From contig JAFUYM010000066.1 in the NCBI GenBank assembly GCA_017470525.1, positions 1 through 46,679 of the forward strand: a stretch of DNA of 46,679 nucleotides, in the 5' to 3' direction. This stretch comes from Bacteroidaceae bacterium. GTDB taxonomy: Bacteria; Bacteroidota; Bacteroidia; Bacteroidales; Bacteroidaceae. Position 1 is the stretch's first letter. The number at the start of each line of letters is the position of its first letter. This document shows, in pieces, positions 3,180-40,004 of this stretch. The translations under genes were made by a program, and so were the position numbers. The notes below the pieces were generated by a model, which searched no databases, was not told the DNA's origin, and was given only the letters and a program-made list of their open reading frames with translations.

Positions 3180-4640
3180 ATGAAAGAACAGACGAACGAG
3201 AGAGAGCAGAACAGAACTTGTTTAGGCTCTGCCGAGCGAGGAGGAAGAACGCGAAGCGAACAGACGAACGAACGAGAGCAGAACCAAGCGGGCTTGGAGT
3301 CTGCCGAACGAGCAGGACGCCGTCGCCACCTTATCATTACGGAAGCCAAGGTGGAGACCGCCGTGCTCGTGGGTCTCATCACGCCTCAGCAGAACGAACG
3401 GAAAACGGAAGAATATCTGAACGAACTGGAGTTTCTGGCAGAAACGGCAGGGGCAAAGGTGGTGCGACGTTACACGCAGAAAGTGAACGGTCCCAGCAGC
3501 ATCACCTACATCGGCAGCGGAAAGTTGGAAGAAATCGCCGCATATATCCGTCAGAAGCAGGATGAAGCCGATGCCTATTGGGAAGACCCCATGGCGACGA
3601 GAGAATTGGCTCCGCAACCTGTCAGTATGGTCATCTTCGACGATGAACTCTCCGCCAAGCAAATCCACAACATCGAGAAAGTTTTGCAAGTGAAGATTCT
3701 CGACCGCACGAGCCTCATCCTCGACATCTTCGCCATGCGCGCACAAACGGCTGCTGCCAAAACTCAAGTGGAACTGGCACAATATCGCTACATGCTGCCA
3801 CGATTGACCCGACTGTGGACCCACCTCGAACGTCAGCGAGGTGGTAGCGTAGGGCTTCGTGGACCAGGTGAGACCCAGTTGGAGATGGACCAACGCATCA
3901 TCCGTCACCGCATCTCCCTCCTGAAGCAACGCCTTGTGGAGATTGACCAGCAGAAGACCACCCAGCGCAAGAACCGAGGACGGCTCATCCGTGTGGCTTT
4001 GGTCGGCTACACTAACGTGGGCAAATCCACCTTGATGAACCTGCTTTCCAAGAGCGACATCTTTGCCGAAAACAAACTCTTCGCCACCCTCGACACCACC
4101 GTTCGCAAGGTCATCATCGGCAACCTCCCCTTCCTCCTGTCCGACACGGTCGGTTTCATCCGCAAACTGCCCACCGACCTTGTGGAGTCCTTCAAGAGCA
4201 CCCTCGACGAAGTGCGCGAAGCCGACCTCCTGTTGCACATTGTCGATATCAGCCATCCCGACTTCGAAGAGCAAATCCAAGTGGTGGAAAAAACCCTCGG
4301 CGACCTTGGCTGTGCCGACAAGCCCCAGATGATTGTCTTCAACAAAATCGATGCCTACACGTGGGTAGAGAAAGAGGCAGACGACCTCACTCCACGCACC
4401 AAAGAGAACATCCCTCTGGACGAACTCATGCACACCTGGATGGCGAAACTTACCCCCACAGGCAACCACACCCCCGAGGACAACCGCCTCGGCTGTTTCT
4501 TCATCTCTGCCGCCCAACGTACCAACATCGACGAGTTTCGCGAACTCCTCTACAAGCGAGTCCGCGAAATGCACGTCCAGAAGTACCCCTACAATGACTT
4601 CCTTTACACCAACTACGACGAGAACGGAGAAGTCAGATAA
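3180..4640 (+). CDS. hflX: GTPase HflX with repeat-derived N-terminal extension
   Basis: A ribosome-associated GTPase that splits or rescues stalled 70S ribosomes, often under stress. The HflX N-domain runs from about residue 51 to 265, including the family motif GGSVGLRGPGETQLE (221-235). The G domain follows with G1 GYTNVGKS (276-283), G3 DTVG (322-325) and G4 NKID (388-391). The protein has 486 residues, about 45-50 more than typical. The excess is residues 3-50, a tandem 24-residue duplication (EQTNEREQN... twice) between the initial MKE and the normal HLIITEAKVETAVLVGL. The start is the ATG 20 bp after the -7 box. It converges with the efflux operon, with 7 bp between stop codons. Confidence 0.95.
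   Translation: MKEQTNEREQNRTCLGSAERGGRTRSEQTNEREQNQAGLESAERAGRRRHLIITEAKVETAVLVGLITPQQNERKTEEYLNELEFLAETAGAKVVRRYTQKVNGPSSITYIGSGKLEEIAAYIRQKQDEADAYWEDPMATRELAPQPVSMVIFDDELSAKQIHNIEKVLQVKILDRTSLILDIFAMRAQTAAAKTQVELAQYRYMLPRLTRLWTHLERQRGGSVGLRGPGETQLEMDQRIIRHRISLLKQRLVEIDQQKTTQRKNRGRLIRVALVGYTNVGKSTLMNLLSKSDIFAENKLFATLDTTVRKVIIGNLPFLLSDTVGFIRKLPTDLVESFKSTLDEVREADLLLHIVDISHPDFEEQIQVVEKTLGDLGCADKPQMIVFNKIDAYTWVEKEADDLTPRTKENIPLDELMHTWMAKLTPTGNHTPEDNRLGCFFISAAQRTNIDEFRELLYKRVREMHVQKYPYNDFLYTNYDENGEVR
3186..3329 (+). repeat. 72-bp tandem duplication inside hflX
   Basis: Bases 3186-3257 and 3258-3329 are two head-to-tail copies of a 72-bp unit, both opening GAACAGACGAACGA. They encode residues 3-26 and 27-50 of HflX. 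The copies differ at several bases, so the duplication is not recent. The unit is a multiple of three, keeping the frame. Confidence 0.85.
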
Positions 4641-4647
4641 AGAATTC

Positions 4648-5931
4648 CTAATTAACCGCACATGTCTTTCTCTGATACTCCGCCACACGCATCTGGTAGG
4701 TGGCACATGCCGTGACGAGTCGGCTCTCCGCTTGTGTGTAGAGTGTCACCGCATCCAGCAGGTCGGTCAGTGTGGTGGTGCCGACGGCATAAAAGTTACG
4801 TTCCATCCGCAGGTTCTCGTTTGCTGACTCCACGGAGGTGCGGGCGATGTCTATCTGCTTGTAGGCTTCTTCCATGTTATTCCATGCCGATTGGAGATCA
4901 ATAGCCAGTTTCTCTCGGGCATCCAGTCGGTCGTTCTCTGCCTGTAGGTGTTGCAACTTTGCTTTTTTCACCGCGTGGCTGCCACCCCACCAATCGCTGA
5001 TGGGCACCGAGAGGGTGGCGAAGACCAAACCGTTCGTCTGGTCATCGTGGTCGATGCTCTGATAGAAACCGTTCACTCCCACAGCCACAGAGGGCAACAA
5101 CTTTCCACGTTCCATCCTTACGTTGAGCCGCTGTGCCTCTTCATTCTTTTGCGAGAGCACATACTCCTCACGGTTGGCAACAGCCTCTTCCTTGTCTCTC
5201 AGAAAGGTGGTGGGGAGGGAAGGCGACAGGAAGGAAGCAGAAGGGGTAAGTTGATAGTCGCCCTCTTCCATTCCCACCTGTTGAGCCAGGAGCAGTTTCA
5301 GGATGCTAATGCCGTTCTCCAGTTCCAAGCGACTGGAAGCCACTTCTTGCTGTTTCAGTTCCACCCTCAGCAGGTCGTTGCGAGTGGTCACGCCTGCTTT
5401 CACGTAGTTGTCGGTCAATCGATGCACCTCGTCCAGTTGCACCTTCACCGAGTCGAGCGTGGCGATGTTGCTTTGCAGGGAGATGATTTGCCAATAGTAT
5501 TGAGCCACTTGAAGTGCCACATCTTTTTCTGACATCCGCAGTTGGAGTTGGCTCACCTCTTCTTGCAGGGCTGCCAACTTGTTGCCTGTCACAATCTGTC
5601 CGCCTTGGAAGAGGGGCTGCACCGCCATCACACTGCCCACCATGCCTTTCTTCACCATCGCCATGTCCAAGGCTCCCATGCCAGGCACATCCATTGTACT
5701 CTGCACCAAGTCATCGAAGCCATGAAAGCCCACTCCCGTGGCACTCACCTGCGGGAAATAGTTCGTGCGAGCCTTTGCCTTGTCCTCCTTGGCGGCATCG
5801 ATGCCCAAACGGGCATTCTTCAGTGTTCGGTTGTTCTGCACAGCCATTTCCTGCAACTGTGCCAAGGTGTACTCCTGGGCACTGATACCATAGGAGCACA
5901 ACGTCAATATCATCAATAGAATCTTTTTCAT
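4648..5931 (-). CDS. TolC-family outer membrane efflux protein
   Basis: A 427-residue outer membrane channel subunit, third gene of the RND operon. It begins with a signal peptide (MKKILLMILTLCSYGISAQ) and continues YTLAQLQEMAVQNNRTLKNA, the usual start of the OEP/TolC fold, with two internally similar helical repeats. It would form a trimeric tunnel across the outer membrane that docks with the membrane fusion protein. The start lies 6 bp beyond the stop of the RND pump gene, so the two are almost certainly co-transcribed. Substrate is unknown. The C-terminus ends without the extra residues seen in some homologues. Confidence 0.92.
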   Translation of the reverse strand: MKKILLMILTLCSYGISAQEYTLAQLQEMAVQNNRTLKNARLGIDAAKEDKAKARTNYFPQVSATGVGFHGFDDLVQSTMDVPGMGALDMAMVKKGMVGSVMAVQPLFQGGQIVTGNKLAALQEEVSQLQLRMSEKDVALQVAQYYWQIISLQSNIATLDSVKVQLDEVHRLTDNYVKAGVTTRNDLLRVELKQQEVASSRLELENGISILKLLLAQQVGMEEGDYQLTPSASFLSPSLPTTFLRDKEEAVANREEYVLSQKNEEAQRLNVRMERGKLLPSVAVGVNGFYQSIDHDDQTNGLVFATLSVPISDWWGGSHAVKKAKLQHLQAENDRLDAREKLAIDLQSAWNNMEEAYKQIDIARTSVESANENLRMERNFYAVGTTTLTDLLDAVTLYTQAESRLVTACATYQMRVAEYQRKTCAVN

Positions 5932-5937
5932 TTTCTG

Positions 5938-8900
5938 CTATTTCTTTTTATCAAATATCTTCCAATACACAACAGGTAGCACCGTCACCACCATGATGAG
6001 TGAGCCGATGCCTCCCGCAAAGATGGAGACACCCACAGGCATCCAAAGGTTGGTGGCAGCCACAATCATGGGCACGACGCCTACCGCCGTGGTGGCTGTG
6101 GTGAGGAAAATCGGCACCATGCGACGACGACCTGCATCGTAGGCAGCATCACGCACCTTCCAGCCTTGCCGCACCAGTCCGTTGGCGTGTTCGAAGATAA
6201 GGATTTCGTTCCTCATAATCATACCCATCAGCGTGACGAACCCCATCACGGCGGTGATACCGACGGCACGGTTCATCAGCGACAAGCCCAAGATGGCACC
6301 CGGCAGACAGAGGGCAATGGAGAGCACACAGACGAAGGTAATTTTGTAGTTCTTGAAGTTGAACAGGATAAAGAAGAAAATGATGATGATGCCGATGGCA
6401 AGTCCTTCGCCCAGCGGCAAAAGGTTCTCAGCATCGTCTTCCGGCTCTCCACCCACTTCAAACCGCACCCCTTCGGGCAGATGAATCTGCGTGGTTGCCA
6501 CCTGTTGCATCTCTTTGTGGATGGGGGCAGGGAGCACGTTGCGTTTCAGGTCGCAAGAGACGGTAACGCAACGCTCTCCGCTACGGTGTACAATGTTGGT
6601 GGCTGTCCATGCAGGGTGTGCCTCCCCCATCTGGCGGAGCGGCACCGATGCACCCACGGATGAGAGATAGAGACCGTTCACATCGTCGCAGTCGAGGCTT
6701 TCCTTGTGCATGTCTTTCAGCATGATGGGCACCTCATAGTCACCTTCCCACACTTGCCCCACCTTGGTGGTGCCAGTGCTTAATGCCAGTTGCAATTCCG
6801 TCATGGTGCGGTTCATGCCCAACTGGCTGGTTGCCACAGGGTCAAGTTCCACTTCGATGATGGAACGAGGCTCCCGCCAGTCGGTGTGTACGTTCATCAT
6901 GTCGGGGTTCTTCCGCATCACCGCCATCATCTCGTCTGCCACGATGCGGAGACTGTCGGCATCGTCGCCATAGAAGCGGTACTCGAAGGGGTCGTAGTTC
7001 TGGAAGTCCAACTGCTTGAACTTCACGAAAGCATTGGGGAAGTGCTCGGAGTAGAGCGGCTCGTAATAGTCGAGCATTTCGATGGTTGCCTCCTGCGACA
7101 CGGTGTTGACGATGAACTGTGCATAGTTCCGCCCTGCCATCTTCGGTGCGTAGGCCGTGTGGAAACGAGGGGAGGAGCATCCGATGAAACTGGTCACACT
7201 CACCGTCCGCTCGTCTTGGCTCAGCACCTCGTAGATGGAGTCGGCAATGGCTTTCGTTTCGTTCAGTCCTGTGCCTTCGGGCAAGAAAATCTCCACGGCA
7301 AACTGGTCGCGGTCGGCTGTGGGCATCAGACGCACCTTCAGCGTCGATGCCAGCACAAGGCTCAATGCCACCAATGCGACGGCACTCCCGATGGTGAGCC
7401 AAGGATTGCGGAATGTCCAGTCAAGCACTTTCTCATACCCCATCTGCACATAGTCGGTGAGACTCTTCTTCTGTGGTTCCTCCTTGATGTCCTCTTCGGT
7501 CACATCGCCCACACGGCTGGTGGGCTTCGATACTTCCACATGCTTATGCACGGTCTTCTTACGCTTCTTAATCATAAAGTATTCCATGACGGGAATGGCG
7601 ATGACAGCCAGCACCAGTGACACCATCAGGTTTATCAGAATCGTCCAAGGGAACCACTGGAGGAAGTCGCCCTTCATGCCGAACAGGAGGAAGAGAAAGG
7701 GGAAGAAGATGACCGAGATGCAGAGCGTGGCGAGCATCATGGGCATGAAGTAGTGCTGTGCCGACTCTGCCGCTGCGTGCCAACGAGACATCCCTTTGTT
7801 CAGATATTCCAAGTAGCCGTCGAGCACCACAATGGCATTGTCTACCACCATACCCAACACGATGATGAGGGCTGCCAGGGTGACGGTGTTGAGCGGTATG
7901 CCCACCATGTACATCACGCCGATGGAGATGAACGTGCTGAGCGGAACGGTGACACCTGCCACCACAGCGGTACGCCATGGGAAAAGAATGAGCATGACAA
8001 TCACGATGATTGCCATCGACTCCAAGAGATTGAGCATGAAATCATTGACACTCCCTTCCACCACCTTGCACTGGTCGGCAATGCGGCTCACCGTCACGTC
8101 CTTGGGCAGTTCTGTCTCCACATAATCATCCAGCACCTGCTGCACATCCTCGCCGTACTGCACGATGTTGTTGCCCTCCATCATCTCGAGAGAGAGGAGC
8201 ACACAGGGGTGTCCGTTGTATTCGATGTAACTCTCCGTGCGGTCGTACTCACGCTTCACGGTTGCCACATCCTTCACTCTCACCACATGGTTCTGTGCAT
8301 CGGTGTAGATGATTTGATTCTCAATCTCCTGTTTGCTCGACACCGTGGGTGCCACATGGATGGGCACATCCTTCTCCGTGCCGCTGATGCTGCCAGCCAT
8401 CGTGGTCATGCCAGCCGACTGCAAGGCTTGCATCACCGCCATCTTGCCGATGCCGTATGCCGCCAGTCGCTGCTGGTCCACCTCGATGCTGATTTGTTCT
8501 TTCAGGTCGCCATAGAGCACCACGTTGCTGACGGATGGAAGACGACGCAAGCGGTCAGCCAAGTCGTCGCTGTATCTCTTCAGTTCGCGAGGGCTGCGGT
8601 CTTGGCTCTCGATGGCAATGAGGAGTGCCGAGGCACTGCCGAAGTCGTCGTTGACTGCCAAAGCCAACACGCCGCTTGGCAGGCTTTGGCTCTTGAAGGC
8701 GTTCAGCCCATGCTTGATTCTCGACCACACTTCGTCCTTGTTGTTCACATGGTCTTGCAACTCCACCATGCACACGCACATGCCGTTGCTGCTCGTGGTG
8801 GTGGTCTTCTTGCGTTTCACCTCGTCGAAGGTGAAGAGATACCTTTCCAAAGGCTTAGCCACCTGCTCTTCCACTTCTTCGGCTGTGGCTCCCGGATAGA

Positions 8901-9057: not shown

Positions 9058-9062
9058 AAATC

Positions 9063-9150
9063 TTCCATTTTTCTATTCTTCAGTCTTCAATTCCTCAGTT
9101 CTTCAATTCCTTAGTTCTTCAATTCTTCAGTTCTTCAGTTCTTCAGTTCT
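9063..9150. repeat. Octamer tandem array at the 3' end of the fusion-protein gene
   Basis: About ten imperfect copies of an 8-bp unit, CTTCAGTT or CTTCAATT on the plus strand, fill the gap between the fusion protein and pump genes. The array reaches into the end of the fusion-protein gene and supplies its last codons and stop (GluGluLeuLysAsn-stop). Confidence 0.8.
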
Positions 9151-10259
9151 TCCACATCAGTTCCTTCGCTTAGTTTTTGGTATCCTTCCACAATCACTTT
9201 CTCTCCTTTCTTCAAGCCGCTCACCACCTCCATGCGGTTGCCCGAAGCCTCGCCCAGCGTCACCTTCGCCCGATGTGCCTTCCCATCTTCTGCCTTCCAC
9301 ACAAACATGTTGCCATCTGCCGAACGCTGCACCGCCGTAATCGGCACCGAAACGGCGGACCCTCTCTGTCCTTCGGACATCTCCCCCATAATGGGGAGAC
9401 CATCCGGCTTGTTAGCCAATGAAGAACATTCCGCATGGTCTCCCTCCCCATTATGGGGGAGGGTTGGGGAGAGGGTCTTCACCTTCACCTCACACACCAT
9501 TCCTGCCAAAAGCCTTTCTCCCGGATTCTCCACGCGGATTCTGAGGTCATACGTCCTGCTGACGGGGTCTGCCTGCACTCCTTTCTCAATCTTGCCTCCT
9601 GCAAACGTCTCTCCCAATGCCTCCACACGAATCTCCGTCGGCGTCGTGGCTGAGAACTGGGCAATCTCTTTCTCCGGCACACTCACTTTCACCTTCACAT
9701 TATTTATATTAAGGATGGTGCACACGGGCTGGCTGGGCAGCGCTGTTTCCCCTGCGTTCATCATCTTCTTGCCCACCACGCCGCTCACGGGTGCATGCAC
9801 GCGGCAATCAGCCACCGCCTTCTTCGCCATGTCAAGTTGAGCCTGAGCCTGTGCCACTTGGCTCTGTGTCTCCACCCACTTCATGTCTGCCAGCGAGTTC
9901 TGGTCGTGCAGTTGCTTCATTCGAGCCAAGGCGTCATTTGCCTGCCGCATCTGTGCCTCACAGTTAGCAAGGGCATTCCGTGCCTGTGTGGCATCCATCT
10001 CGGCGATGAGTTGTCCCTTGCTCACACGCTGTCCTTCATCCACCAGCACACGCAGCACCGTGCCGCTGCCCGTGAAACTGACCGCCGTGCTCGACTCAGC
10101 CTCCACTTCGCCTACGTAGATTCGACCATTGACGTCGGCAGCCTCGCCGACCACCTCTGTCTTCACTCTCACAGGAGCCACCTTCCGCTCCTGCTTGCCT
10201 CCGCTGCACGATGCCAACAATGTCAGCATCACAGCAGAAAGAAATGCTACTTTTTTCAT
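9135..10259 (-). CDS. RND membrane fusion lipoprotein with in-frame repeat insertion
   Basis: A 374-residue periplasmic adaptor linking the RND pump to the TolC-like channel. MKKVAFLSAVMLTLLASCSGG carries a lipobox, with Cys18 the probable lipidated residue. A barrel-sandwich (biotinyl-lipoyl) domain flanks a helical hairpin at about 90-150, followed by the beta-barrel domain (170-260) and membrane-proximal domain (303-374). Residues 262-300 (TLSPTLPHNGEGD through LPIMGEMSEGQRGS) are foreign to the family and are encoded by a palindromic element at 9360-9476; without it VCEVKVK would join SAVSVPITAV directly, as in normal family members. First gene of the operon; a divergent AraC gene suggests regulation. 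Confidence 0.92.
   Translation of the reverse strand: MKKVAFLSAVMLTLLASCSGGKQERKVAPVRVKTEVVGEAADVNGRIYVGEVEAESSTAVSFTGSGTVLRVLVDEGQRVSKGQLIAEMDATQARNALANCEAQMRQANDALARMKQLHDQNSLADMKWVETQSQVAQAQAQLDMAKKAVADCRVHAPVSGVVGKKMMNAGETALPSQPVCTILNINNVKVKVSVPEKEIAQFSATTPTEIRVEALGETFAGGKIEKGVQADPVSRTYDLRIRVENPGERLLAGMVCEVKVKTLSPTLPHNGEGDHAECSSLANKPDGLPIMGEMSEGQRGSAVSVPITAVQRSADGNMFVWKAEDGKAHRAKVTLGEASGNRMEVVSGLKKGEKVIVEGYQKLSEGTDVEELKN
9360..9476. repeat. Palindromic element in frame inside the fusion-protein gene
   Basis: Arms at 9381-9403 (CTCCCCCATAATGGGGAGAC...) and 9435-9461 pair over about 23 bp with a 2-bp bulge. Outer GGACCCTCTC / GAGAGGGTC sequences extend the symmetry. The insert is 117 bp, exactly 39 codons, so the frame is kept. 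No second copy is seen in this window. Confidence 0.8.
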
Positions 10260-11334: not shown

Positions 11335-11364
11335 AGAAAAAATCGATGCACCACAGGCGGCGGA

Positions 11365-11500
11365 TGCTTTCCGCCGCAAGAGAAAAGGCGGGACACACGC
11401 AAGAGAAAAATGCTTTCCTCCACAAGAGGAAAGGCGGGACACACGCAAGAGAAAAATGCTTTCCTCCACAAGAGGAAAGGCGGGACACCCGCAAGAGAAG
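11365..11500. repeat. Three tandem 46-bp repeats
   Basis: Copies at 11365-11410, 11411-11456 and 11457-11500 (last shortened by two bases). Each carries a hairpin; in copies 2 and 3 it is CTTTCCTC-CACAA-GAGGAAAG, and in copy 1 a variant with GGCGGAAAGC-type changes that compensate upstream. They lie directly after the AraC gene stop and could end its transcript. Confidence 0.85.
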
Positions 11501-11510
11501 TCGTTCATTG

Positions 11511-11583
11511 TCATTGAACAATTGTTCATCGTCGTTGAATAATTGTTCATTGACATTGAACAATTGTTCGCTGTCATTGAACG
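11511..11583. repeat. Tandem 21-bp repeats built on TTGAACAATTGTTCA palindromes
   Basis: Copies at 11511-11531, 11532-11552 and 11553-11573 plus a partial copy. Each contains a near-perfect 14-16 bp palindrome, TTGAACAATTGTTCA or a one-base variant. The 21-bp spacing places the palindromes on the same helix face, as in arrays of protein binding sites. They lie about 40-110 bp upstream of the HU-like gene promoter. Confidence 0.8.
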
Positions 11584-11619
11584 AAATGCGGGAAAATGAA
11601 TAAATGATTGGACTTTTTC

Positions 11620-14328: not shown

Positions 14329-14472
14329 TTAACGCTTCGCGTCTTTAGAAAAACCATAAAAAACCTCAAAAAACCACTATTCTTTATCATTAAAGAACTT
14401 GATTAACCAGATATTGTTTTTTATGGTTTTTTCTTGTTTTTTTAGGTTTTTCAAAGACCGCTTGCGGTATAA
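14329..14472. repeat. Long palindromic element, family A copy 2
   Basis: The left end reads TTAACGCTTCGCGTCTTTAG then AAAAACCATAAAAAACC; the right end (14415-14472) has TTTTTTATGGTTTTTTCTTG and ends CAAAGACCGCTTGCGGTATAA. Stem regions pair imperfectly. It ends 12 bp before the start of the M16 gene, so it would be in the mRNA leader. Related to 2026-2172 and 35744-35853. Confidence 0.8.
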
Positions 14473-20702: not shown

Positions 20703-21428
20703 ATGGCAAAACAGAAGTTTTATGTGGTATGGAATGGTGCTGAGGATGGGGTGTACACCTCATGGGAGGCATGCAAGGAGGCTGTAGAGGGCTTCTCGGG
20801 GGCGAAATATAAAGCGTTCAAGACGGAAGCAGAGGCGGAAGAGGCATTTGAGATGGGATATGAGGCTTTTCAGGGGAAATTAGAGGAGTTAAAGAAGTTA
20901 GAGGAAGATAAAGACAAATGTGATGCTGACAGTCAGGCATCATCGCAAACTCCGTTAATATCCATAACTTCTGAACGTAGTGGTAACTCCTCAAAACCTT
21001 TTCCTCCTGTAGCCGTCAACGAAGCCATAGCAGTGGATGCAGCATGTAGCGGCAACCCTGGAAAGATGGAGTATCGTGGGGTGTATCTGAAGACGGGGAA
21101 GGAGATTTTTCATTATGGTCCTGTATGGGGTACAAACAATATCGGGGAATTTTTGGCTATTGTACATGGATTGGCTTTGTTGAAGCAGAAGGGGTTGGAC
21201 ACGATGCCTATATACAGCGACAGCGTGAATGCGCAACTGTGGGTGAAGCGGAAGCAGTGCAAGACTACATTAGAACGAAATGAGAAATCGGAGGCTTTGT
21301 ATCAACTGATTGCTCGTGCTGAGACATGGTTGAGAAATAACACATACAGGAATCCGATTATCAAATGGCCGACGGAGGAATGGGGCGAAATCCCTGCTGA
21401 CTTTGGTCGAAAGAGTGGAAAACACTGA
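20703..21428 (+). CDS. Ribonuclease H1 with N-terminal hybrid-binding domain and repeat-derived linker
   Basis: A 241-residue nuclease that degrades RNA in RNA-DNA hybrids. The N-terminal RNase H1/viroplasmin domain (1-55) shows KFYVVWNGAEDGVYTSW and the usual FxGAKYKAFKT. The catalytic domain starts near 104 with Asp112 (IAVDAACSGNPG), Glu149 (GEFLAI), Asp173 (YSDS) and Asp233 (PADFGRKSG). The linker (about 60-100) is encoded by a palindromic repeat of family C; 23 of 27 bases at 20965-20991 match the intergenic copy at 22268-22294. The linker is acidic then Ser-rich and probably disordered, so activity should survive. The gene complements rnhB in hybrid removal. Confidence 0.92.
   Translation: MAKQKFYVVWNGAEDGVYTSWEACKEAVEGFSGAKYKAFKTEAEAEEAFEMGYEAFQGKLEELKKLEEDKDKCDADSQASSQTPLISITSERSGNSSKPFPPVAVNEAIAVDAACSGNPGKMEYRGVYLKTGKEIFHYGPVWGTNNIGEFLAIVHGLALLKQKGLDTMPIYSDSVNAQLWVKRKQCKTTLERNEKSEALYQLIARAETWLRNNTYRNPIIKWPTEEWGEIPADFGRKSGKH
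20883..20992. repeat. Palindromic element, family C, inside the RNase H gene
   Basis: Nested inverted repeats: GAGGAGTTA (20883-20891) with TAACTCCTC (20984-20992), and AGAAGTTA (20893-20900) with TAACTTCT (20965-20972). The block AAAGACAAATGT at 20910-20921 recurs inverted at 22257-22268, and TAACTTCTGAACGTAGTG at 20965 recurs with small changes at 22268. It stays in frame over the whole length. Confidence 0.8.
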
Positions 21429-24916: not shown

Positions 24917-25897
24917 CTATCCATCACCGGCAATCCTTTCCGCCATCTCATTTAAGTGAAGGCATTGCGCCCTCGTTATCACCCTTTTCTCTTGATGGAA
25001 ATCCCAGGGGCTTATTTGCAACAGCAATCCCCTGGCACAAGCATCAAAGGCTTCACCAGAGGGTTTATATAACTTCGGGAAACCATTCTCCCTAAGCAGG
25101 ATAATGTTGTGACCTCGGCTCATGGCTTCTCGCAAGACCTCTTTCTCCTTTGGTGAGATGGCAGCACTAACGAGCACACCACCACGTTCTCCACATACCA
25201 GCCATTTCTCTCTCAGCCGAGCGTTCTCCTCGTCTGTATAGCGCCTATGTACGATGACAGCCATCTTGTCGGGGATATTCAGCAAGAATCTATTACCTAC
25301 TACTTGGCATTGCTCACCTGCTACCTCCATACCTGTGAGCACGGTAAATAGACATGGGTTCTGGCGTTTCATCATCAATCGGCGAGGATTGTCATCAAGA
25401 TAGTGCTTCCATTTATCCAATTGTCCCTCGTGCATGAGAATTTTGTCGCAGTAGCCTTTCTCAAACAAACCCTGTCTCGGAGGTTCATTCATGTTGTACA
25501 ACTTCCAATAGGCAATGTTGCATCCCGACTTGAATCCTGCCACAACTTTCCCAAGATGTTGACCTTTTCCCATGTCCTCATTGACCCTTACAATCATGTG
25601 TAAGTGGTCGGGCATTACACATAGTTTCCACACCTCCACATGAGGGTAATAGCGACTAATCTTCTTCTGCTCTTCCATAACAATTGTGCTTCCGAGGGCA
25701 GAATACTCCACATAAGGAGCCGTCTCACCTTCCAAGCACCCCTTTAACGTGCCCAATAATGCCTTACGCTCCTTCACCACAAGGGTCAGCATGTACGTTC
25801 CCTTACGGCTATAGTCGTGCCATGAAGTGCGTCTCTTCATCGAGTGCTGTATCTCATGCACCTCCATGCCTGCTGCTATGGCTTCTTCGCGCGTCAT
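24917..25897 (-). CDS. Y1 HUH transposase, REP-associated (RAYT) type, with C-terminal extension
   Basis: A 326-residue protein. The N-terminal part (about 25-180) is an IS200-like Y1 domain: TYMLTLVV opens the fold, His98-Leu-His100 in VMPDHLHMIV is the HUH metal site, and Tyr166 in KWKHYLDDNPRR is the likely nucleophile. Residues of about 205-326 (RYTDEENARLREKWL...GGVLVSAAISPKEKEVL...GHNIILL) look like a Rossmann-type fold, an extension I associate with Bacteroidales members. Such RAYT proteins cut single-stranded REP hairpins and are usually single-copy, not flanked by inverted repeats. Its ATG overlaps the preceding stop by ATGA, so it is coupled to a nuclease-containing operon. Confidence 0.85.
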   Translation of the reverse strand: MTREEAIAAGMEVHEIQHSMKRRTSWHDYSRKGTYMLTLVVKERKALLGTLKGCLEGETAPYVEYSALGSTIVMEEQKKISRYYPHVEVWKLCVMPDHLHMIVRVNEDMGKGQHLGKVVAGFKSGCNIAYWKLYNMNEPPRQGLFEKGYCDKILMHEGQLDKWKHYLDDNPRRLMMKRQNPCLFTVLTGMEVAGEQCQVVGNRFLLNIPDKMAVIVHRRYTDEENARLREKWLVCGERGGVLVSAAISPKEKEVLREAMSRGHNIILLRENGFPKLYKPSGEAFDACARGLLLQISPWDFHQEKRVITRAQCLHLNEMAERIAGDG

Positions 25898-26079
25898 AAC
25901 TCTTTGTCTATAGCAATAACAATGCCATCTTCTAATTCTCCAATGTCAATATTTCTCTTACCTACGATTTTCTCTATGGACATTCTCCCCCAGACTTCTT
26001 TTGCTTTCTCTTCCGAATCTGCTTGAATCTCAGTAGTTGACCTATAGAGAAACTCTGTTGTAATTTGGTATTTACCCAT
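25894..26079 (-). CDS. Small protein in the nuclease operon (weakly DpnD/PcfM-like)
   Basis: A 61-residue protein, MGKYQITTEFLYRSTTEIQADSEEKAKEVW..., overlapping the previous gene by TAATG and the next by ATGA. The pattern of a short beta strand, a Thr/Glu-rich strand with an alanine-glutamate helix and an acidic end weakly resembles DpnD/PcfM-like small proteins of mobile elements. The tight overlaps and AT-rich composition like its upstream neighbours argue that it is real. Function unknown. Confidence 0.6.
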   Translation of the reverse strand: MGKYQITTEFLYRSTTEIQADSEEKAKEVWGRMSIEKIVGKRNIDIGELEDGIVIAIDKEL

Positions 26080-26585
26080 TAGTATCCAATAAGTAGTATT
26101 CCTTTCAAAGGTAATTGTAAACGATTTGAGATGTACATTGTTTCAAGAAATGTGAAGACGCGTTGGAAATCATCATGTTTCCTGTAAATATTCCTTACAG
26201 CAAGTACAAGGTATTCAACGTCAAACATCATACATGCCTCGAATATGTCTTTCAAGAAGCGATGGTTCTCTGTTGCTTGTCCTGCTTCCACTTCTACCAC
26301 GATTCTACCATCAGCACTTAAAGCATCAGCATAAAACGATTTGTCAATCTGATTATCTTGACCGAACAAAACAGGTACATCAATCTTTTCCTCGTTACTC
26401 TTGCCACATTCCACCTTGTAACCAAGCCTTTCAATATGTGGACGGACGGCTGCAAGCACGTCATTTGAGACAAGATTTTTTGTAAAGGAATCAATCTCAT
26501 CCTCCACAGTTTTGAAACAATCAATGATGTCCTGTATTTCTTTTGTTACTCCTCTTGAACGAGGGAAAAATTGGTATCTTATCAT
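26079..26585 (-). CDS. Putative PD-(D/E)XK nuclease-like protein
   Basis: A 168-residue protein with helix-rich N-terminus (about 10-60) and an alpha/beta core. The core contains Asp87, then GRIVVEVEAGQ with Glu98 and Glu100 at the spacing expected for a restriction-endonuclease-like active site, followed by a long helix and YLVLAVRNIYR. I recognise this as a conserved hypothetical type, resembling BglII-like folds only at motif level. It overlaps the HaeIII-like gene by ATGA and the small gene by TAATG. DNA cleavage is an inference. It may be a partner or specificity factor for the first gene. Confidence 0.6.
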   Translation of the reverse strand: MIRYQFFPRSRGVTKEIQDIIDCFKTVEDEIDSFTKNLVSNDVLAAVRPHIERLGYKVECGKSNEEKIDVPVLFGQDNQIDKSFYADALSADGRIVVEVEAGQATENHRFLKDIFEACMMFDVEYLVLAVRNIYRKHDDFQRVFTFLETMYISNRLQLPLKGILLIGY

Positions 26586-27289
26586 GCTACCTGATTTTTT
26601 AAGAGTTGTAAAAGTTTGTGTTGCGGTAAATATATTTCATTGTCTTGAACAAAATAAAATATAGTATCGTCTATGAATTCTGCTTCTCGAGATGTCGGTA
26701 ATCCGGTTTTTTCATCAAACAATGCTCTGTCAAACGATTCTGTAGCGATATACATGTTCATTCCCTCAAAGAGAGCATGCCGTATTGGATATTTTGTACC
26801 GTTATAATCAATGTGCTCAAATTCAGAATCCAGAATAATGTGGCAAATGTTTCGCTTATTTTTGAGGTCGTATGTGTAATACATTTCGCCAAATGCACCT
26901 CTGTTTTTATCGTTATAGAAAAACGATGAAAACTGCTTGTGCTTGATGCTCAAACCAATCTCCCACGTTATATTTTTACGTTCTATAATAATATCGCGAA
27001 CATCTGCGATTTCTCCATGTTGGTCTGTTTGAAGATGCAATGACAATATATCGGTGCTTGGTTCAACAATATTTGGTTCCATTGCAAAAATGGTGTCAAT
27101 CGTTGATGCCGCACTTAAGGAATAGAGTGCTTGCTCGGCATGGGACAATATATTCCATGCTCTTTCAGCTGCTTCATAACTGCTATTTATTACAATTTGT
27201 GAAGGTCTGATTTTTGTAATAGCATTGTGTAGAGAATGCAAGCATATAAATTCGTATGCCCTTCCTTGGTCATTGCTAGCACTACTCAT
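26582..27289 (-). CDS. HaeIII-like type II restriction endonuclease (N-terminal similarity)
   Basis: A 235-residue protein. Residues 5-118 closely follow the pattern of HaeIII-family endonucleases (GGCC cutters): SNDQGRAYEFICLHSL, INSSYEAAERAW, LSAASTIDTIFAMEP and ADVRDIIIERKNITWEIGLSIKH, where Asp99, Glu110 and Lys116 are plausible catalytic residues. The remainder does not follow HaeIII, and the protein is shorter than the usual 310-330 residues. No cytosine methyltransferase, normally adjacent, is present in the window. First gene of a four-gene overlapping operon that ends in the Y1 transposase. Low GC suggests horizontal acquisition. Confidence 0.65.
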   Translation of the reverse strand: MSSASNDQGRAYEFICLHSLHNAITKIRPSQIVINSSYEAAERAWNILSHAEQALYSLSAASTIDTIFAMEPNIVEPSTDILSLHLQTDQHGEIADVRDIIIERKNITWEIGLSIKHKQFSSFFYNDKNRGAFGEMYYTYDLKNKRNICHIILDSEFEHIDYNGTKYPIRHALFEGMNMYIATESFDRALFDEKTGLPTSREAEFIDDTIFYFVQDNEIYLPQHKLLQLLKNQVA

Positions 27290-32069: not shown

Positions 32070-32144
32070 TTTTGCCGTACCCCTCGGGTACACTGTGCCG
32101 CACCCGAGGGGTACGAAGTGGTGTACCCGAGGGGTACGGCAAAA
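32070..32144. repeat. GC-rich palindrome built from GTACCCCTCGGGTAC-like units
   Basis: A perfect 24-bp inverted repeat (32070-32093 against 32121-32144) with core CCGTACCCCTCGGGTACAC. The 27-bp spacer contains a third related copy, CACCCGAGGGGTACG (32101-32115). It lies between the stop of the AraC gene and the fumarase promoter and may terminate AraC transcription, though no long T-run follows. Confidence 0.85.
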
Positions 32145-34130: not shown

Positions 34131-34160
34131 TTTCTAAAATAACTCAACTTTTGCGAGTTC

Positions 34161-34357
34161 TTAGAACAACGAATTTTACGAATGAAACGAATCTTTTTTT
34201 ATGTCGCAGGGCGACGACGAATAAAAACGAAAGAGAGCCTTGGGCGGCTCTGCCATGCGGTAGCCCCGTCGCTTGCGACGATGTTCGTTTTCATTCGTTG
34301 CCGCTTGCGGCATTGCAAGAAAAATATTAGTCATATTCGTAAAATTCGTTGTTCTAA
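34161..34357. repeat. MITE-like element with perfect 23-bp terminal inverted repeats, family B copy 1
   Basis: Termini 34161-34183 and 34335-34357 are exact reverse complements over 23 bp, starting TTAGAACAACGAATTTTACG. Inside are further hairpins, including GCCGCTTGCGGC at 34300-34311. A 33-bp stretch (34283-34315) is identical to 44280-44312 in copy 2. No coding capacity is seen. It lies between the PNPOx-like gene and the small winged-helix gene and was possibly mobilised in trans. Confidence 0.88.
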
Positions 34358-34390
34358 AAAAACTTGCGAAATTCCAATAATAATTGACGT

Positions 34391-34564: not shown

Positions 34565-34626
34565 GAGTCCCCTGCGTCGTGACGGTGCAGATGACACCGT
34601 ATGAACGATAAACCCATTTTTTGCCG

Positions 34627-34687: not shown

Positions 34688-34697
34688 TTCTCTATTT

Positions 34698-35477: not shown

Positions 35478-35520
35478 TAATCCCGAAATCTTTTATTAAC
35501 TTTCTAAAAACCTCAAGACG

Positions 35521-35682: not shown

Positions 35683-35743
35683 CTTTGATAGCATTGAGAA
35701 CATGCTATCAGAGCAATAAAACTAAATGAACTTTCGGGTGTTT

Positions 35744-35853
35744 TTTACGCTTCGCGCCTTTAGAAAAATAAAAAAAGACAAAAAAATATAAGAAAAAATA
35801 TTTTATTTTGTTTTTTCTTGTTTTTCTAAAGGCCGCTTGCGGTAAGATAAACG
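35744..35853. repeat. Long palindromic element, family A copy 3
   Basis: The left end TTTTACGCTTCGCGCCTTTAG leads into A-rich sequence, and the right end (35800-35853) has TTTTTCTTGTTTTTCTAAAG and then GCCGCTTGCGGTAAG. It ends 32 bp before the start of the metallo-beta-lactamase fusion. Same family as 2026-2172 and 14329-14472. Confidence 0.8.
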
Positions 35854-35884
35854 TTGGAAGTTGATTGAACTAAAAAAGAGTAAT

Positions 35885-36826
35885 ATGGAAATCAAAGCAG
35901 TAAAGTTTAGAAAAGATGGCTTCTATACCCAGCCTTTCGTCTTTGGCGGCGAAGAGGGAGTGGAGAAGTTTGACAAAAATATCCGCTATCGCGGCAGTTT
36001 GCAGAACTACCTGATTGACACGGGCACCGAAGTGATTCTCGTGGATACGGGCATTCCTGCAGGAACCCCAGAAGAGCATCCAGATGAGAACTCGCTTGCC
36101 TTTACGGGTAAGGACATCTGCACCTACATGGAGGCCTTTGCCGCTCTTGGCTATAAGCCCGAGCAAGTGACCAAGATTCTGCTCACCCACAAACATGCTG
36201 ACCATTCTGGCGAACTCCGTTCTTTTCCCAATGCGAAAATCTACGTGAACAAAGAAGAACTGAGCGCCGCCGAACTGCAAGGCATCGAGAACCTTGTGCC
36301 TGTGTCGTTCACCGATGGAGCCTACTACAATTTCCCTGAGACTCAGAAGATTCAGGACGACATCTACTTCATCAAGGCAAAGGGACACACCAACGGCAAC
36401 AGCATCGTCGTTGTGGAGATGGATGGTCTCTTCTACATGCTTCATGGCGACATCACCTATATGGACGAAGCCCTCTATGAGAACAAACTCTCCGTTGTCT
36501 TCGACGACCTCCCTGCCGCCCGCGAGACCTTAGACCGTGTGCGTGAGTTTGTCCGCAACCATCCCACCGTCTATTGCGGCACCCACACCCCACAGGGCTA
36601 CGAGAACTTGGAGGCAAAGCGTGTGATGGACTTGGACAACCCCGTTCCGACCGTTCTGGCAGAGGTGAACTTTGAGCAGCAGGAGGCATCGGGCAAGTAT
36701 GTCTGCTCCATCTGCGGCTATGTCTATGACCCAGCCGAACACGACGGCGTGGCATTCGAAGACCTGCCCGACGACTGGAAATGTCCTCGTTGCAAACAAG
36801 GTAAAGAGAAGTTCAACAAAGCATAG
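35885..36826 (+). CDS. Metallo-beta-lactamase-fold hydrolase fused to C-terminal rubredoxin
   Basis: A 313-residue two-domain protein. Residues 1-265 are a metallo-beta-lactamase fold: His102-x-His104-x-Asp106-His107 (THKHADHSG), His168 (KGHTNGNS), Asp189 (HGDIT) and His234. Residues 272-313 are a full rubredoxin with Cys274-x-x-Cys277-Gly and Cys300-x-x-Cys303. The binding motif is the classical zinc type, not the HxExDH of flavodiiron oxygen reductases, and no flavodoxin domain is fused. The start MEIKAVKF is taken because it lies after the repeat; a longer frame begins 8 codons earlier. Radical SAM and flavodoxin genes follow, suggesting a redox role. Substrate unknown. Confidence 0.88.
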
Positions 36827-36838
36827 CATCAGGACGGA

Positions 36839-37942
36839 ATGACAGAAAACACGACAATTGACTTAGGTGCCTACATGAGCAACAGCATCCGCAACATCAT
36901 GGCAAAGGCATACAAGAACGTGCTCTCGAACCCTCGTGAGGCGAAGTTTGCCTATCGAATGCAGACGCTCTTCCAGAAGTCGGAAAGCCGGCGGAAGAAG
37001 GTGCAAGAGAAGGAAGGTCTGGAGGTGCCGCCATTTCTTATCAGCAGCATCTCCACCACCTGCAACCTGCATTGCAAGGGGTGCTATGCACGCAGCAACG
37101 GTATCGCAGAAGATAAGGAGGCAGAACGTAAGGACACCTTGATGGGGGAGCAGTGGAAACGCATCTTCGCCGAGGCTGCCGACATGGGCATCAATTTCTC
37201 CCTCATCGCAGGTGGCGAACCCCTGATGCGGAAAGACATCTTGGAGGGCATCGCTGAGGTGAAGGACATGATTTTCCCCATCTTCACTAACGGCACCCTC
37301 ATTGGCCCCTCCTACATGGAGTTTTTCCGTAAGCACCTTAACATGGTGCCCATCATCAGCATTGAAGGCACGGCAATGGGCACCGACGAACGCCGTGGCA
37401 AGGGAGTGTTCAAGCGTGCCATGCAGTCGATGGAGATGCTGAAGGAGGATGACCTTTTCTTTGGCACCAGCATCACCGTGACCACCGAGAACTACCGCTA
37501 TGTCACCTCGCCAGAGTTCATCGACACCCTCCGCTCCTACGGCTGCAAAATCGTCTTCTATGTGGAGTATGTGCCGACGGAACCAGGCACAGAGCATCTG
37601 GCGTTCGCCGACGAGCATGTGGCAGAGATGGAAGCCCTCTTGGTGGAGCGTCGCCAAGCCTATGCCGACATCATCTTCCTCTCTTTCCCTGGCGACGAGA
37701 AAGCCCTGGGCGGCTGTCTGGCATCTGGTCGTGGATTCTTCCATATCGGTCCCGATGGCTCGGCAGAACCCTGTCCATTCTCACCCTTCAGCGACAGCAA
37801 CGTAGCCGAGATGGGGGTGCGGAAAGCCCTCCAGTCGCCCCTCTTCCGCAAGATTCGTGCCGCCAAAGCCCTCGGATGGGAGCATACAGGTGGCTGCACC
37901 CTATTTGAGCATCGGGAGGAAATAGAGAAAATGGTCGTATAA
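36839..37942 (+). CDS. Radical SAM protein with SPASM-like C-terminus
   Basis: A 367-residue enzyme. The 4Fe-4S site is Cys75-x3-Cys79-x2-Cys82 (CNLHCKGCYA), and GGEP (125-128) is the SAM-binding motif. Further cysteines in GGCLASGRG, EPCPF and GGCTLFEH suggest an auxiliary cluster near the C-terminus, as in SPASM or twitch domains. Such enzymes modify peptides, sulfatases or small molecules. The gene starts 12 bp after the hydrolase-rubredoxin gene and precedes flavodoxin, a usual electron donor for radical SAM enzymes. No precursor peptide gene is evident. The target is unknown. Confidence 0.88.
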   Translation: MTENTTIDLGAYMSNSIRNIMAKAYKNVLSNPREAKFAYRMQTLFQKSESRRKKVQEKEGLEVPPFLISSISTTCNLHCKGCYARSNGIAEDKEAERKDTLMGEQWKRIFAEAADMGINFSLIAGGEPLMRKDILEGIAEVKDMIFPIFTNGTLIGPSYMEFFRKHLNMVPIISIEGTAMGTDERRGKGVFKRAMQSMEMLKEDDLFFGTSITVTTENYRYVTSPEFIDTLRSYGCKIVFYVEYVPTEPGTEHLAFADEHVAEMEALLVERRQAYADIIFLSFPGDEKALGGCLASGRGFFHIGPDGSAEPCPFSPFSDSNVAEMGVRKALQSPLFRKIRAAKALGWEHTGGCTLFEHREEIEKMVV

Positions 37943-37964
37943 TCACATAAAAACAAAATAAAAG

Positions 37965-38372
37965 ATGAGCATCGCAATTCGTTATTTCAGCAAGTTCGGC
38001 CACACAGAGAAGATGGTCGGCATCATTACAGAACTCACAGGCGTGAAAGCCGAAACCGTTGCAGTTCCACTTACTGAGCCTGTTGACACCCTTTATTTGG
38101 GTTCGGGCGTTCTGTTGGGCAAAGTGAATGGTGCAGTCGTTGATTTCATCAAGACCTTGAAGCCTGAGCAGGTGAAGATGGTGATTTGTTTCGGCTCCTG
38201 TGCCATCATCAAGTCACCCGTTCCTCAAATGCGGCAACTGCTCGAAGCACAAGGTATCACCGTTTCCACACAGGAGTTCACTTGTAAGGGTTCGATGGGG
38301 CCACTTCATGCAGGACACCCCAATGCAAAAGACATGGAAGACTTCAAGAAATTTGTACAATCTACCCTTTGA
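37965..38372 (+). CDS. Short-chain flavodoxin-like protein
   Basis: A 135-residue FMN-binding electron carrier. RYFSKFGHTEKM near the N-terminus is the phosphate-binding loop of the flavodoxin fold, and LYLGSGVLLGKVN and ICFGSCAIIK cover the isoalloxazine loops. It is shorter than typical long-chain flavodoxins. It starts 22 bp after the radical SAM gene and is the likely electron donor to it. Ends at a bidirectional terminator. Confidence 0.85.
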   Translation: MSIAIRYFSKFGHTEKMVGIITELTGVKAETVAVPLTEPVDTLYLGSGVLLGKVNGAVVDFIKTLKPEQVKMVICFGSCAIIKSPVPQMRQLLEAQGITVSTQEFTCKGSMGPLHAGHPNAKDMEDFKKFVQSTL

Positions 38373-38383
38373 AAAGATGAGAG

Positions 38384-38421
38384 AAAGAGCCGTGAAGTAG
38401 TATCACGGCTCTTTATTTTTT
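38384..38421. terminator. Bidirectional terminator whose stem contains the flippase stop codon
   Basis: AAAGAGCCGTGA (38384-38395) and TCACGGCTCTTT (38403-38414) form a perfect 12-bp stem followed by ATTTTTTTT. On the minus strand, the right arm encodes the last residues and the TGA stop of the flippase, so the coding sequence ends inside the terminator. Confidence 0.9.
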
Positions 38422-40004
38422 TTGAAAAGATAACTCATGCACTCACGGAGAATTTTGGCACCAAAGAGCCATAACGCTCCGAGATAGATGGCAGCGGCAA
38501 GGAGGATGCGTGTGATGAGCAACAGGAGCAGGTCTGCCCACGCATTGGGCATTTTTACCCATTCGGTCAGGGGACCAGCCCACGCGCTGGGCGTTTCTCT
38601 CCATTCGGTCAGGGGAAGGGTGACGAAATAGGTGATGAGCATGGTGGTTGCCGCGATGAGCAGGAAGGGAAGGATGTCTTTCAGGGCTGAAAGGAACGGA
38701 TAACGGATTTCCTGATAGAGAAAACGGTGCCAGATGCCGACCCAAAGAATGACAATAGCGACGTAGGCAAGAACCATGAGGTCAAGGTTCTGAAGTGAAA
38801 AGTGAAAAGTGAAAAGTGACAAATCCAAGCTTCTGATGCCTGAAGCATACACCATGAGGATGGAGCCGAGAATGGCACAGCCTTGTGCGATGATGTTCCA
38901 CATATAGACATCGGACTTGCCACGGGCAATGATGAGGTTGTAGTAGAGTGTGGCGATGGGCAGGAAGGCACCACCAATGCAGAGCAACTGCATCAGATGG
39001 GCGGAGGAAAGCCACTTTTCACCGATAAGTACTACGATAAATTCGGGTGCCACCAGTGAAAGCCCGAACATGACAGGGAAGGAAACGAAACAGGTGAAAC
39101 GGAGCATCTTGGAGAAGGCTCGACGGAGGCGTTCGAGGTCGTCGCCTACTTCTACAAAGGTGGGTTGTGCCACGCCTTGTACCATGCCCGTGATGGTGGA
39201 GGATCCCATGGTGTTCCACTTGTTGGCTTGGTTGTAGGTGCCCACTTCGTGCTTGGTGTAGAGTTTGCCGAGCACAACGGAGAAGATGTTGTTGTTCACA
39301 CCAATGAAGATGTTGGTGATGAGCATTTTAGACGAAAAGGCGAACATCTCTCGGATGGGGCCAGCCCATGCGCTGGGCGATTTTCTCCATTCGGATAGGG
39401 GGAAAGTGGGTTTCCAACCCGATATGACCCAACTGAGGATGCTGACCATGAGGTTGAAGACGATGGTTTGGGTGGCGAGTCCCCAGTATGCCATACCGTT
39501 GTATGCCATAGCGATGCCGACAATGCCTGATATGAGCAATGCCGTCAAGCCCATGATGGCAAGTTCTTTCTGCTTGATTTGTCGGAACAGAATGGCTCGT
39601 GGCACAATGCTGAACGAGGCGATGAAGAAGCCGAAGAAATAATAGCGGGAAAGATTGGTCAGAATGGGCTCATCGAAGAACCATGCGATGAGAGGGGCGC
39701 AGAAGAAGAAGAGAATGTAGAGGCACAGGCTCACCCCGATGTTGAACCAAAAGACGGAGTTGTAGTCGCTGTGGGTGGCATTTTTCTTATTGGTCAGTGC
39801 TGTCACAAAGCCGCTGTCTTGCAGGGAGTTGGCGATGAGCGTGAAGATGGTGAGCATGCCGATGAGACCATAATCCTCTTGTGAAAGCCGACGTGCCAAC
39901 AGGATGCCGAACACTGCATTCAGCACCTGCATGGCTCCGTTGTTTAAGGCTCCCCACAGGAAACCGTGAGCCGTCTTGTCTTTCAGGGAGGTGGATGGTT
40001 TCAA
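38403..40004 (-). CDS. Polysaccharide flippase (Wzx/MATE-like) with in-frame repeat insertions
   Basis: A 533-residue inner membrane protein with about 12-14 helices, resembling lipopolysaccharide or O-antigen exporters (polysaccharide_synt family): KTAHGFLWGALNNGAMQVLNAVFGILLARRLSQEDYG is a family opening. It would flip undecaprenyl-linked glycans to the periplasm. Three family-foreign segments interrupt loops: PLSEWRKSPSAWAG (202-215), PLTEWRETPSAWAG followed by PLTEWVKMPNAWAD (465-491), and SLFTFHFS (396-403), encoded by heptamer repeats. No glycosyltransferases lie adjacent, unusual for a flippase. A degenerate heptamer stretch (about 40005-40030) sits just before its start. Confidence 0.9.
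   Translation of the reverse strand: MKPSTSLKDKTAHGFLWGALNNGAMQVLNAVFGILLARRLSQEDYGLIGMLTIFTLIANSLQDSGFVTALTNKKNATHSDYNSVFWFNIGVSLCLYILFFFCAPLIAWFFDEPILTNLSRYYFFGFFIASFSIVPRAILFRQIKQKELAIMGLTALLISGIVGIAMAYNGMAYWGLATQTIVFNLMVSILSWVISGWKPTFPLSEWRKSPSAWAGPIREMFAFSSKMLITNIFIGVNNNIFSVVLGKLYTKHEVGTYNQANKWNTMGSSTITGMVQGVAQPTFVEVGDDLERLRRAFSKMLRFTCFVSFPVMFGLSLVAPEFIVVLIGEKWLSSAHLMQLLCIGGAFLPIATLYYNLIIARGKSDVYMWNIIAQGCAILGSILMVYASGIRSLDLSLFTFHFSLQNLDLMVLAYVAIVILWVGIWHRFLYQEIRYPFLSALKDILPFLLIAATTMLITYFVTLPLTEWRETPSAWAGPLTEWVKMPNAWADLLLLLITRILLAAAIYLGALWLFGAKILRECMSYLFKKNKEP
38532..38612. repeat. Two tandem copies of a 42-bp coding repeat in the flippase
   Basis: Two adjacent copies of a unit that reads CCATTCGGTCAGGGGA at one end and CCAGCCCACGCGCTGGG at the other, encoding residues 465-491. 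A related single copy is at 39360-39401. Each unit has a small GCCCA/TGGGC hairpin. Confidence 0.85.
38795..38819. repeat. Heptamer array inside the flippase gene
   Basis: 3.6 copies of GTGAAAA on the plus strand, encoding residues around 395-403. Three heptamers are 21 bp, so the frame is preserved. The unit type is like the intergenic heptamers elsewhere in the window. Confidence 0.85.
39360..39401. repeat. Single copy of the 42-bp coding repeat in the flippase
   Basis: Encodes residues 202-215, between SGWKPTF and PIREMFAFSSK, which are adjacent in typical family members. It shares CCAGCCCA[CT]GCGCTGGGCG and TCTCCATTCGG with 38532-38612. Confidence 0.85.

Follow-up and report, generated by a model that had tools for sequence, protein, structure and literature searches.

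Family F, a hairpin-forming repeat of one Bacteroidaceae genus, sits mainly inside open reading frames and directly after stop codons

The stretch of DNA analysed here (46,679 nucleotides (nt), hereafter the window) is the whole of contig JAFUYM010000066.1 (C72) of the Bacteroidaceae bacterium assembly GCA_017470525.1, a 3.24-Mb draft genome in 83 contigs that is 83.5% complete. Its gene for a HlyD/CusB-type membrane-fusion protein (the fusion protein) holds one copy of a palindromic repeat, family F, and copies of F in this genome (the own genome) and in its relatives sit mainly inside open reading frames (ORFs) or, within operon gaps, immediately downstream of a stop codon. Together, the results argue that F is a hairpin-forming repeat amplified within one Bacteroidaceae genus, and we give this explanation, taken whole, a probability of about 0.8. 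The proteins that bear F appear to contain a repeat-made segment. Four of them, leucyl-tRNA synthetase (LeuRS), UvrA, MurF fused to alanine racemase (MurF-Alr) and the fusion protein, lack the short native loop that relatives have at the site where F sits. An earlier note on the window had claimed that four genes contain in-frame repeats from different families, with palindromes of families A, B and C filling the gaps, and had read this as active or recent amplification with selection for inserts that keep frame in linkers and loops.

A BLAST search of the own genome with window positions 9400-9500 returned 38 pieces. Alignment of 18 own copies, 12 in genes and six in gaps, gave the ends AGACCCTCTC and GAGAGGGTCT and GC-rich hairpins flanking a small core (CCATGCGG..CCGGATGG). 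Of the 28 pairs predicted in the consensus fold, seven show change on both sides (covariation). The median length of F is 123 nt in genes and 152 nt in gaps. With a covariance model of F, 56 matches on both strands of the own genome were obtained at E<=0.01 (the weakest at about E 0.008), counted as 33 places. The same model was run on 81 genomes, comprising 45 of the genus (own included), four from other Bacteroidaceae genera and 32 others of the order. F was found in 36 of the 45 genus genomes and in none of the remaining nine, and the matches per genus genome ranged, as a rough figure, from 0 to at least 35 (both strands, among up to 38 candidates scored). No model match was found in any of the four genomes from other Bacteroidaceae genera, and two of the 32 other genomes of the order gave weak matches (best E 3e-7 and 2e-6). 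At the Rfam gathering score, the window and four loci matched just a tRNA, so that F in these matched no known structured RNA. Amplification in this lineage, as claimed earlier, is borne out for F; the comparison is one between species and does not show present-day activity. The likeness among copies could also be convergent, the loops being fast-evolving linkers in which local slippage or template switching raises palindromes; one loop can indeed hold different palindromes, and the 7-nt tandem arms of some of these resemble slippage products. For F, heptamer arms apart, this is refuted by a single 123-position model that scores many copies at 80-144 bits across unrelated genes and species and by own-genome loci that share stretches of 79 nt (90% identity) and 55 nt (95% identity), and we regard convergence as very improbable overall.

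Placement was examined against gene calls made by our own codon-usage script, for which 102 long ORFs served as the training set. From 30 own F loci, L046 and L047 (repeats of one place) and L039 and L040 (contig ends) were excluded to leave 26, and eight further BLAST pieces were left out of the placement counts; the relatives' sample of 89 copies joined the best locus from each of 29 genomes to 60 top-scoring further places. A copy was classed as inside a gene when its frame was open and continued for at least 20 codons both before and after the element. By this definition 73 of the 115 copies examined (18/26 own and 55/89 relatives') lay in an open coding frame, in 49 host clusters. A scan for ungapped inverted repeats scoring at least 15 found 144, against 0 in one dinucleotide shuffle, and caught just one F inside a gene; it misses F gene copies because their arms carry indels, and windows were folded instead. 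Over 1.01 Mb, five of 20,209 coding windows of 130 nt had z<-6, all five of them F, as did 40 of 4,714 other windows. A few copies placed by chance, the outcome that the earlier note had set against its own claim, do not account for these numbers.

The hosts of F have no evident common function. A Pfam family was matched by 15 of the 18 own hosts and by all three scanned from named relatives. By Pfam and solved structures, the own hosts include LeuRS, UvrA, a RecD-like helicase, topoisomerase III, a MutS2-type protein and an NtrC-type regulator, together with HI0933, MurF-Alr, CbiJ/CbiD, GH43 and others. LeuRS and MurF are essential. Two more hosts in relatives are what we take to be CTP synthase and RsgA. 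Annotators and modellers may need to be cautious here, as one repeat-made peptide may recur in dozens of unrelated proteins.

Frame usage was counted in 62 gene copies of known orientation, a set from which the short own copies were excluded. Frame +2 (TLSPTLPHNGEG..) was the commonest (45 copies), followed by -1 (nine), +0 (five), -0 (two) and -2 (one); frame +1 was used by none and was open in just five. With one copy per host, frame +2 was used in 27 of 39 and frame +1 in 0 of 39. The frames used by gene copies are open, which would speak against an intron-like or bypassed insert taken out at the RNA level, were openness not demanded by the inside class itself. Among gene copies frame +2 was open in 57 of 62, compared with 12 of 37 in gaps (p 6e-10); with one copy per host it was open in 34 of 39 gene copies (p 1e-6). 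Part of this difference arises because gap copies are longer and meet stops more often. For F, the proposal that selection favours frame-keeping inserts in linkers and loops is supported by these counts and by the alignment gaps described below. Its expected signature, a length divisible by three, did not hold, being present in 32 of the 62 gene copies. Since an insertion site may also lose native bases, element length was discarded as a selection test. Frame is kept by the net change, native bases lost included, rather than by the length of the element, and at the four ortholog-compared sites this net change is a multiple of three.

Alignment with solved structures placed the LeuRS insert between residues 705 and 715 of T. 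thermophilus LeuRS (1h3n), the UvrA insert between residues 259 and 267 of 9gxk, the AroE insert between residues 96 and 97 of the shikimate dehydrogenase 3fbt, and the insert of a pyridoxal phosphate (PLP) lyase between residues 145 and 147 of 4dgt. In a SpoU methylase the insert falls at a 12-residue alignment gap. The best match of topoisomerase III aligns through the insert without a clean gap and was not counted as a mapped turn, and the solved-structure match of MurF-Alr covers the racemase half alone and not the insert. The mapped positions are probably surface turns, to judge from these sequence alignments. In the AlphaFold model of the fusion protein, residues 263-300, between strands 255-260 and 303-306, form the only long internal stretch with a predicted local distance difference test score (pLDDT) below 50, in a model whose predicted template-modelling score (pTM) is just 0.45.

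Comparison of orthologs distinguished filled from empty sites. The full F element was absent from the fusion-protein gene in 10/10 named ortholog loci, from Bacteroidaceae and Prevotellaceae metagenome-assembled genomes (MAGs) whose source, where given, is the ruminant stomach, and in nine other orthologs of the genus compared (of 11 tried). L108, L111 and L248 (G013) hold, in the loop of this protein, a short GC palindrome resembling half an F arm. LeuRS has one match in the own genome and was matched in 40 of the 45 genus genomes; in the 25 of 30 loci that were compared, five sites were filled and 20 had the native linker, often NEDGTINATDGAAS. The own genome (G000) and G037 carry F at this site, G007 has F with other arms, and a different palindrome occupies it in G017 and G003. 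Relative to the 117-nt stretch that 18 of the 20 empty sites have, the net gain is 81-99 nt, some 30-40 nt of native linker being gone. The sister genomes G017 and G026 differ at this site, the first being filled and the second empty. At UvrA (26 of 30 loci compared), four sites were filled by palindromes and the other 22 were shorter; G000 carries F, G003 a palindrome with similar ends and other arms, and G023 (L289) and G016 (L290) a palindrome with 7-nt AGTTGAC arms. For MurF-Alr, where the main comparison covered 20 of 30 loci, F was found in G000, G014 and G005 (L156), elements with other arms in G026, G039, G017 and G037, and the native form in 15 compared. On a four-protein FastTree tree, several branches of which are weak, the minimum number of state changes was four for each of LeuRS, UvrA and MurF-Alr, the UvrA count leaving out G044 and G012, whose loops are of middle length. 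That one loop holds different palindromes in different species at all three proteins points to recurrent events, and allele exchange between species may have contributed to the pattern. With filled and empty alleles of one housekeeping gene at hand, the arrival of the element, its effect on the enzyme and the making of new loops in old folds become testable.

Nearly all gap copies (41/42) lay between co-directional genes, an arrangement that accounts for 78% of the gaps sampled and 64% of their bases; the binomial p of 4e-4 by gaps and 2e-7 by bases holds if copies are independent, which some are not. In 33 of the 41 co-directional cases the copy started 0-11 nt past a stop codon. L140 starts at -2 relative to the stop, L141, L151, L177 and L191 cover the last 58-87 nt of the upstream gene, and L142, L143 and L138 lie 16, 150 and 161 nt from it. 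This position by the stop codons of co-directional genes is what would be expected if F were a working RNA hairpin that tunes expression and was placed by selection, not a selfish repeat. We consider that unlikely, however, as its presence in one gene differs between sister genomes, nine of the 45 genus genomes have no F match and the hosts share no evident function.

The proposed course of events is that F copies would arrive by some replicative process and that insertions breaking a gene would be lost; the survivors would be copies that, together with any native bases lost, preserve the reading frame, bring no stop into it and place their peptide in a loop. Arrival by replacement at short matching sequences, rather than by transposase cut-and-paste, is the point of which we are least sure, and the odds seem somewhat against it. 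The right end of F shares short matches with the closest empty allele at the fusion protein and MurF-Alr, two of the four sites, which was not used as proof. A number of observations weigh against the explanation as given. Relative to distant solved homologs, no loop is missing in AroE or the PLP lyase, whose inserts look like plain insertions, and an insert in hflX, of a different repeat, likewise looks like a plain insertion with no lost native stretch, so that replacement is not general. A target-site duplication of 2 nt was seen in 3/89 copies, at the level of chance (about 4.6 of 89 expected with at least 2 nt). No mover emerged: Pfam family PF01797, that of Y1 transposases, was matched above the cut-off in 4/14 F-rich and 10/31 other genomes, without association, and with weak matches included in 7/14 and 13/31 (Mann-Whitney p 0.49, 45 draft genomes). 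Translation of the in-frame copies is presumed, and the fusion-protein model has the low pTM given above. Since the inside class requires an open frame, a disrupted gene would be counted as a gap; the relatives' copies were taken from top scores, so that weak or decayed copies are under-sampled; many copies are common by descent, so that the counts and p values are not those of independent events; and all genomes are drafts.

Exact terminal inverted repeats of at least 10 nt in 58 of the 89 relatives' copies, a dispersed distribution and a fitting size would suit a miniature inverted-repeat transposable element (MITE) derived from an ordinary insertion sequence whose ends are AGACCCTCTC. A target duplication at chance level and the native bases missing at four sites speak against such an origin, as do the plasmid and phage collections, in which the window F element had no blastn match, and the viral contigs, in which one exact F core pattern had 0 matches; we hold it to be doubtful, with a minor share of the probability. 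Travel of F on phages or plasmids was considered separately, and no match was found in those collections. We judge it improbable that F is a repetitive extragenic palindromic (REP) sequence mobilised by a REP-associated tyrosine transposase (RAYT; a Y1 HUH transposase), as in enterobacteria and pseudomonads. The window does contain a Y1-type gene (24917-25897), the candidate mover, F is an inverted hairpin pair like REP dimers, and coding REPs are reported in the portions of PMC3733652 drawn on here. This gene, however, is the only one found in the own genome, with the sole F match on its contig 15 kb away; the presence of PF01797 is unrelated to the number of F matches across the 45 draft genomes; and neither GTAG nor CGTC occurred within 6 nt of an F end in any of 89 copies. 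A RAYT as the mover of F is thus unsupported by the own-genome protein search and by PF01797 across the 45 genomes. The Y1 gene and two neighbouring ORFs (24917-27289) have low codon-usage scores and were perhaps recently acquired.

That the inserts are assembly or binning artefacts might be feared, as the genomes are drafts throughout and repeats break assemblies, yet the same-site insert recurs in several genomes (a 159-residue protein, seven loci) and one peptide recurs in named MAGs from different projects, which leaves the possibility close to negligible. Beyond the amplification of F, a recurrent process in this genus might overwrite short linkers, in protein loops and operon gaps alike, with hairpin DNA of several unrelated families, the same linkers being struck repeatedly. 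The apparently plain insertions in AroE and the PLP lyase lower the odds of this broader reading, which we offer as a speculation more probably wrong than right. If it were true, loops of essential enzymes would be exchanged wholesale between species faster than the surrounding folds change.

The other repeats of the window (Table 1) differ from F in where they lie. Matches to A (35/35 places), B (21/24, with two partly inside and one inside) and C (13/17, with four partly inside) fell outside called genes at E<=0.001 in 1.01 Mb. The A, B and C palindromes were thus rightly placed in gaps by the earlier note, and its general statement, upheld for F, cannot be extended to these three inside genes, as they lie almost wholly outside; the type of 7-nt array found in the flippase gene lies inside a gene in one of 12 places. 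Its four genes with in-frame repeats reduce to three, as the repeats of the fusion protein (F), hflX and the flippase are real and that of RNase H1 is not upheld in 1.01 Mb.

Table 1. Repeats and associated genes of the window.
Feature	Position	Strand	Basis or remark
F element in membrane-fusion gene	9357..9478	-	model match 137.9 bits; open frame; reads KTLSPTLPHNGEGDHAECSSLANKPDGLPIMGEMSEGQRGS
HlyD/CusB-type membrane-fusion protein (host gene)	9135..10259	-	Pfam HlyD_D23 6e-23
H repeat, two copies	3186..3329	+	in frame after third codon (MKE) of hflX
HflX GTPase (host gene)	3180..4640	+	Pfam GTP-bdg_N, GTP-bdg_M, MMR_HSR1
P unit (GCCCACGCGCTGGGC hairpin), two in tandem, flippase gene	38536..38616	-	family D5
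Third P unit, flippase gene	39364..39402	-	repeat search
7-nt AGTGAAA array, in frame in flippase gene	38790..38830	-	repeat search
Polysaccharide flippase (host gene)	38403..40004	-	Pfam Polysacc_synt_3 1e-75
RNase H1 linker, claimed repeat	20895..21010	+	unsupported
RNase H1 gene (hybrid-binding domain and RNase H)	20703..21428	+	Pfam Cauli_VI, RNase_H
Y1 (IS200-like, RAYT-type) transposase gene	24917..25897	-	Pfam Y1_Tnp 2.6e-5
A palindrome (TTACGCTTCGCG arms), intergenic	2026..2175		repeat search
A palindrome, intergenic	14329..14470		repeat search
A palindrome, intergenic	35742..35845		repeat search
B palindrome (AACAACGAATTT arms), intergenic	34150..34365		repeat search
B palindrome, 5' edge of predicted gene	44179..44330		repeat search
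B half-element, intergenic	44830..44920		repeat search
C palindrome, 7-nt AATGAAG arms, intergenic	3025..3160		repeat search

The H copies of hflX are 60 nt long (3186-3245 and 3258-3317), spaced 72 nt and 78% identical. HflX begins with MKEFVITEAKV or near it in the four relatives shown of 29 loci, whereas here MKE is followed by 47 net residues relative to them, and none of 41 matched relatives aligns ahead of query residue 46. Elsewhere the H unit has one own-genome match at E 3e-6 and occurs twice in L018, in a gap and at the 3' end of a predicted gene; at 18116-18244 of L018 a relative of the H repeat adjoins a promoter-like TACCTTTGC motif and may contain a short leader frame. The P unit is 39 nt long, its flippase copies starting at 38536, 38578 and 39364, and gave nine rows in the own genome at E<=0.05, including two from the flippase itself. 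It stands directly after a stop codon in the gap copies L057, L059 and L060 (around 1501) and lies within called genes in L056, L058 and L062, where it is read otherwise than in the flippase; L061 is a gap copy without a preceding stop codon. The 12 places of the 7-nt array type in 1.01 Mb comprise eight outside genes, three partly inside and the one in the flippase. Palindrome arms made of 7-nt tandem repeats, sometimes in genes, were seen in the window at 1-95, 3025-3160 and 38790-38830 and in UvrA of L289 and L290, with the heptamers AATTCAT, AATGAAG, AGTGAAA and AGTTGAC. The RNase H1 linker had two weak outside matches in the first 386-kb sample (E 0.002 and 6e-4) and no match beyond itself at E<=0.001 in 1.01 Mb. 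At 32074-32143 and 46431-46495 are gap elements in which a palindrome of about 17 nt occurs about three times, with related clusters of 13, 9, 6, 3 and 3 segments; the palindromes differ wholly from copy to copy (GTACCCCTCGGGTACG, CGGACTGGAGCAGTCCG, CCGACGTCGTCGATGTCGG, GGTGAGAGTCTCACC) within an apparently like layout. Between two genes, 11364-11585 holds a 46-nt unit three times together with tandem 21-nt units, and the last 138 nt of the window (46542-46679) are common to the ends of two other contigs (L020, L076), as an assembly-breaking repeat.

As a kind, F is known, its counterparts being the Rickettsia palindromic elements (RPEs) and the REPs found within genes. The portions of PMC2229807 used here describe RPEs as hairpins of 105-146 bp with inverted ends, for which target duplication was not established, occurring both between genes and in frame in conserved protein genes. 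F resembles them as a dispersed in-frame hairpin in many unrelated genes with orthologs lacking it; the likeness drawn here is one of description, and F differs in belonging to another phylum, in the native loop missing at four sites and in the variety of palindromes that a single loop can hold among sister species. Correia/NEMIS and other MITE-like repeats are, in the same portions of that paper, small hairpins fused in frame to genes, as F is; F has no target duplication and no known transposase, an insertion sequence with F ends not having been searched for. Intragenic REPs with GTAG/CGTC tags, as presented in the sections of PMC3733652 considered, are dimeric hairpins whose hosts include uvrA and tRNA synthetase genes and whose gap copies lie near stops. 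F shares the dimeric hairpins, the near-stop gap copies and the uvrA and tRNA synthetase hosts, but has neither the GTAG/CGTC end tag nor a link to a Y1 transposase, and most examined F copies are in genes whereas most REPs, by the same sections, are between genes. Nematomorph mitochondrial genes, according to the parts of PMC6649704 used, likewise have long inverted repeats within protein genes, there in animal mitochondria. The titles and abstract openings listed in searches of open-access papers, among them PMC5771137 on Porphyromonas repeats, describe no coding palindrome family in Bacteroidota, which is not proof that none is in print. Protein-coding palindromes, known from Rickettsia and scattered other genomes, are thus met here at scale, in a genus with dozens of sequenced species; within the literature searched, what is new in F relative to these systems is the host group, the scale, the four missing native loops and the finding that different palindromes have filled one loop repeatedly in sister species.

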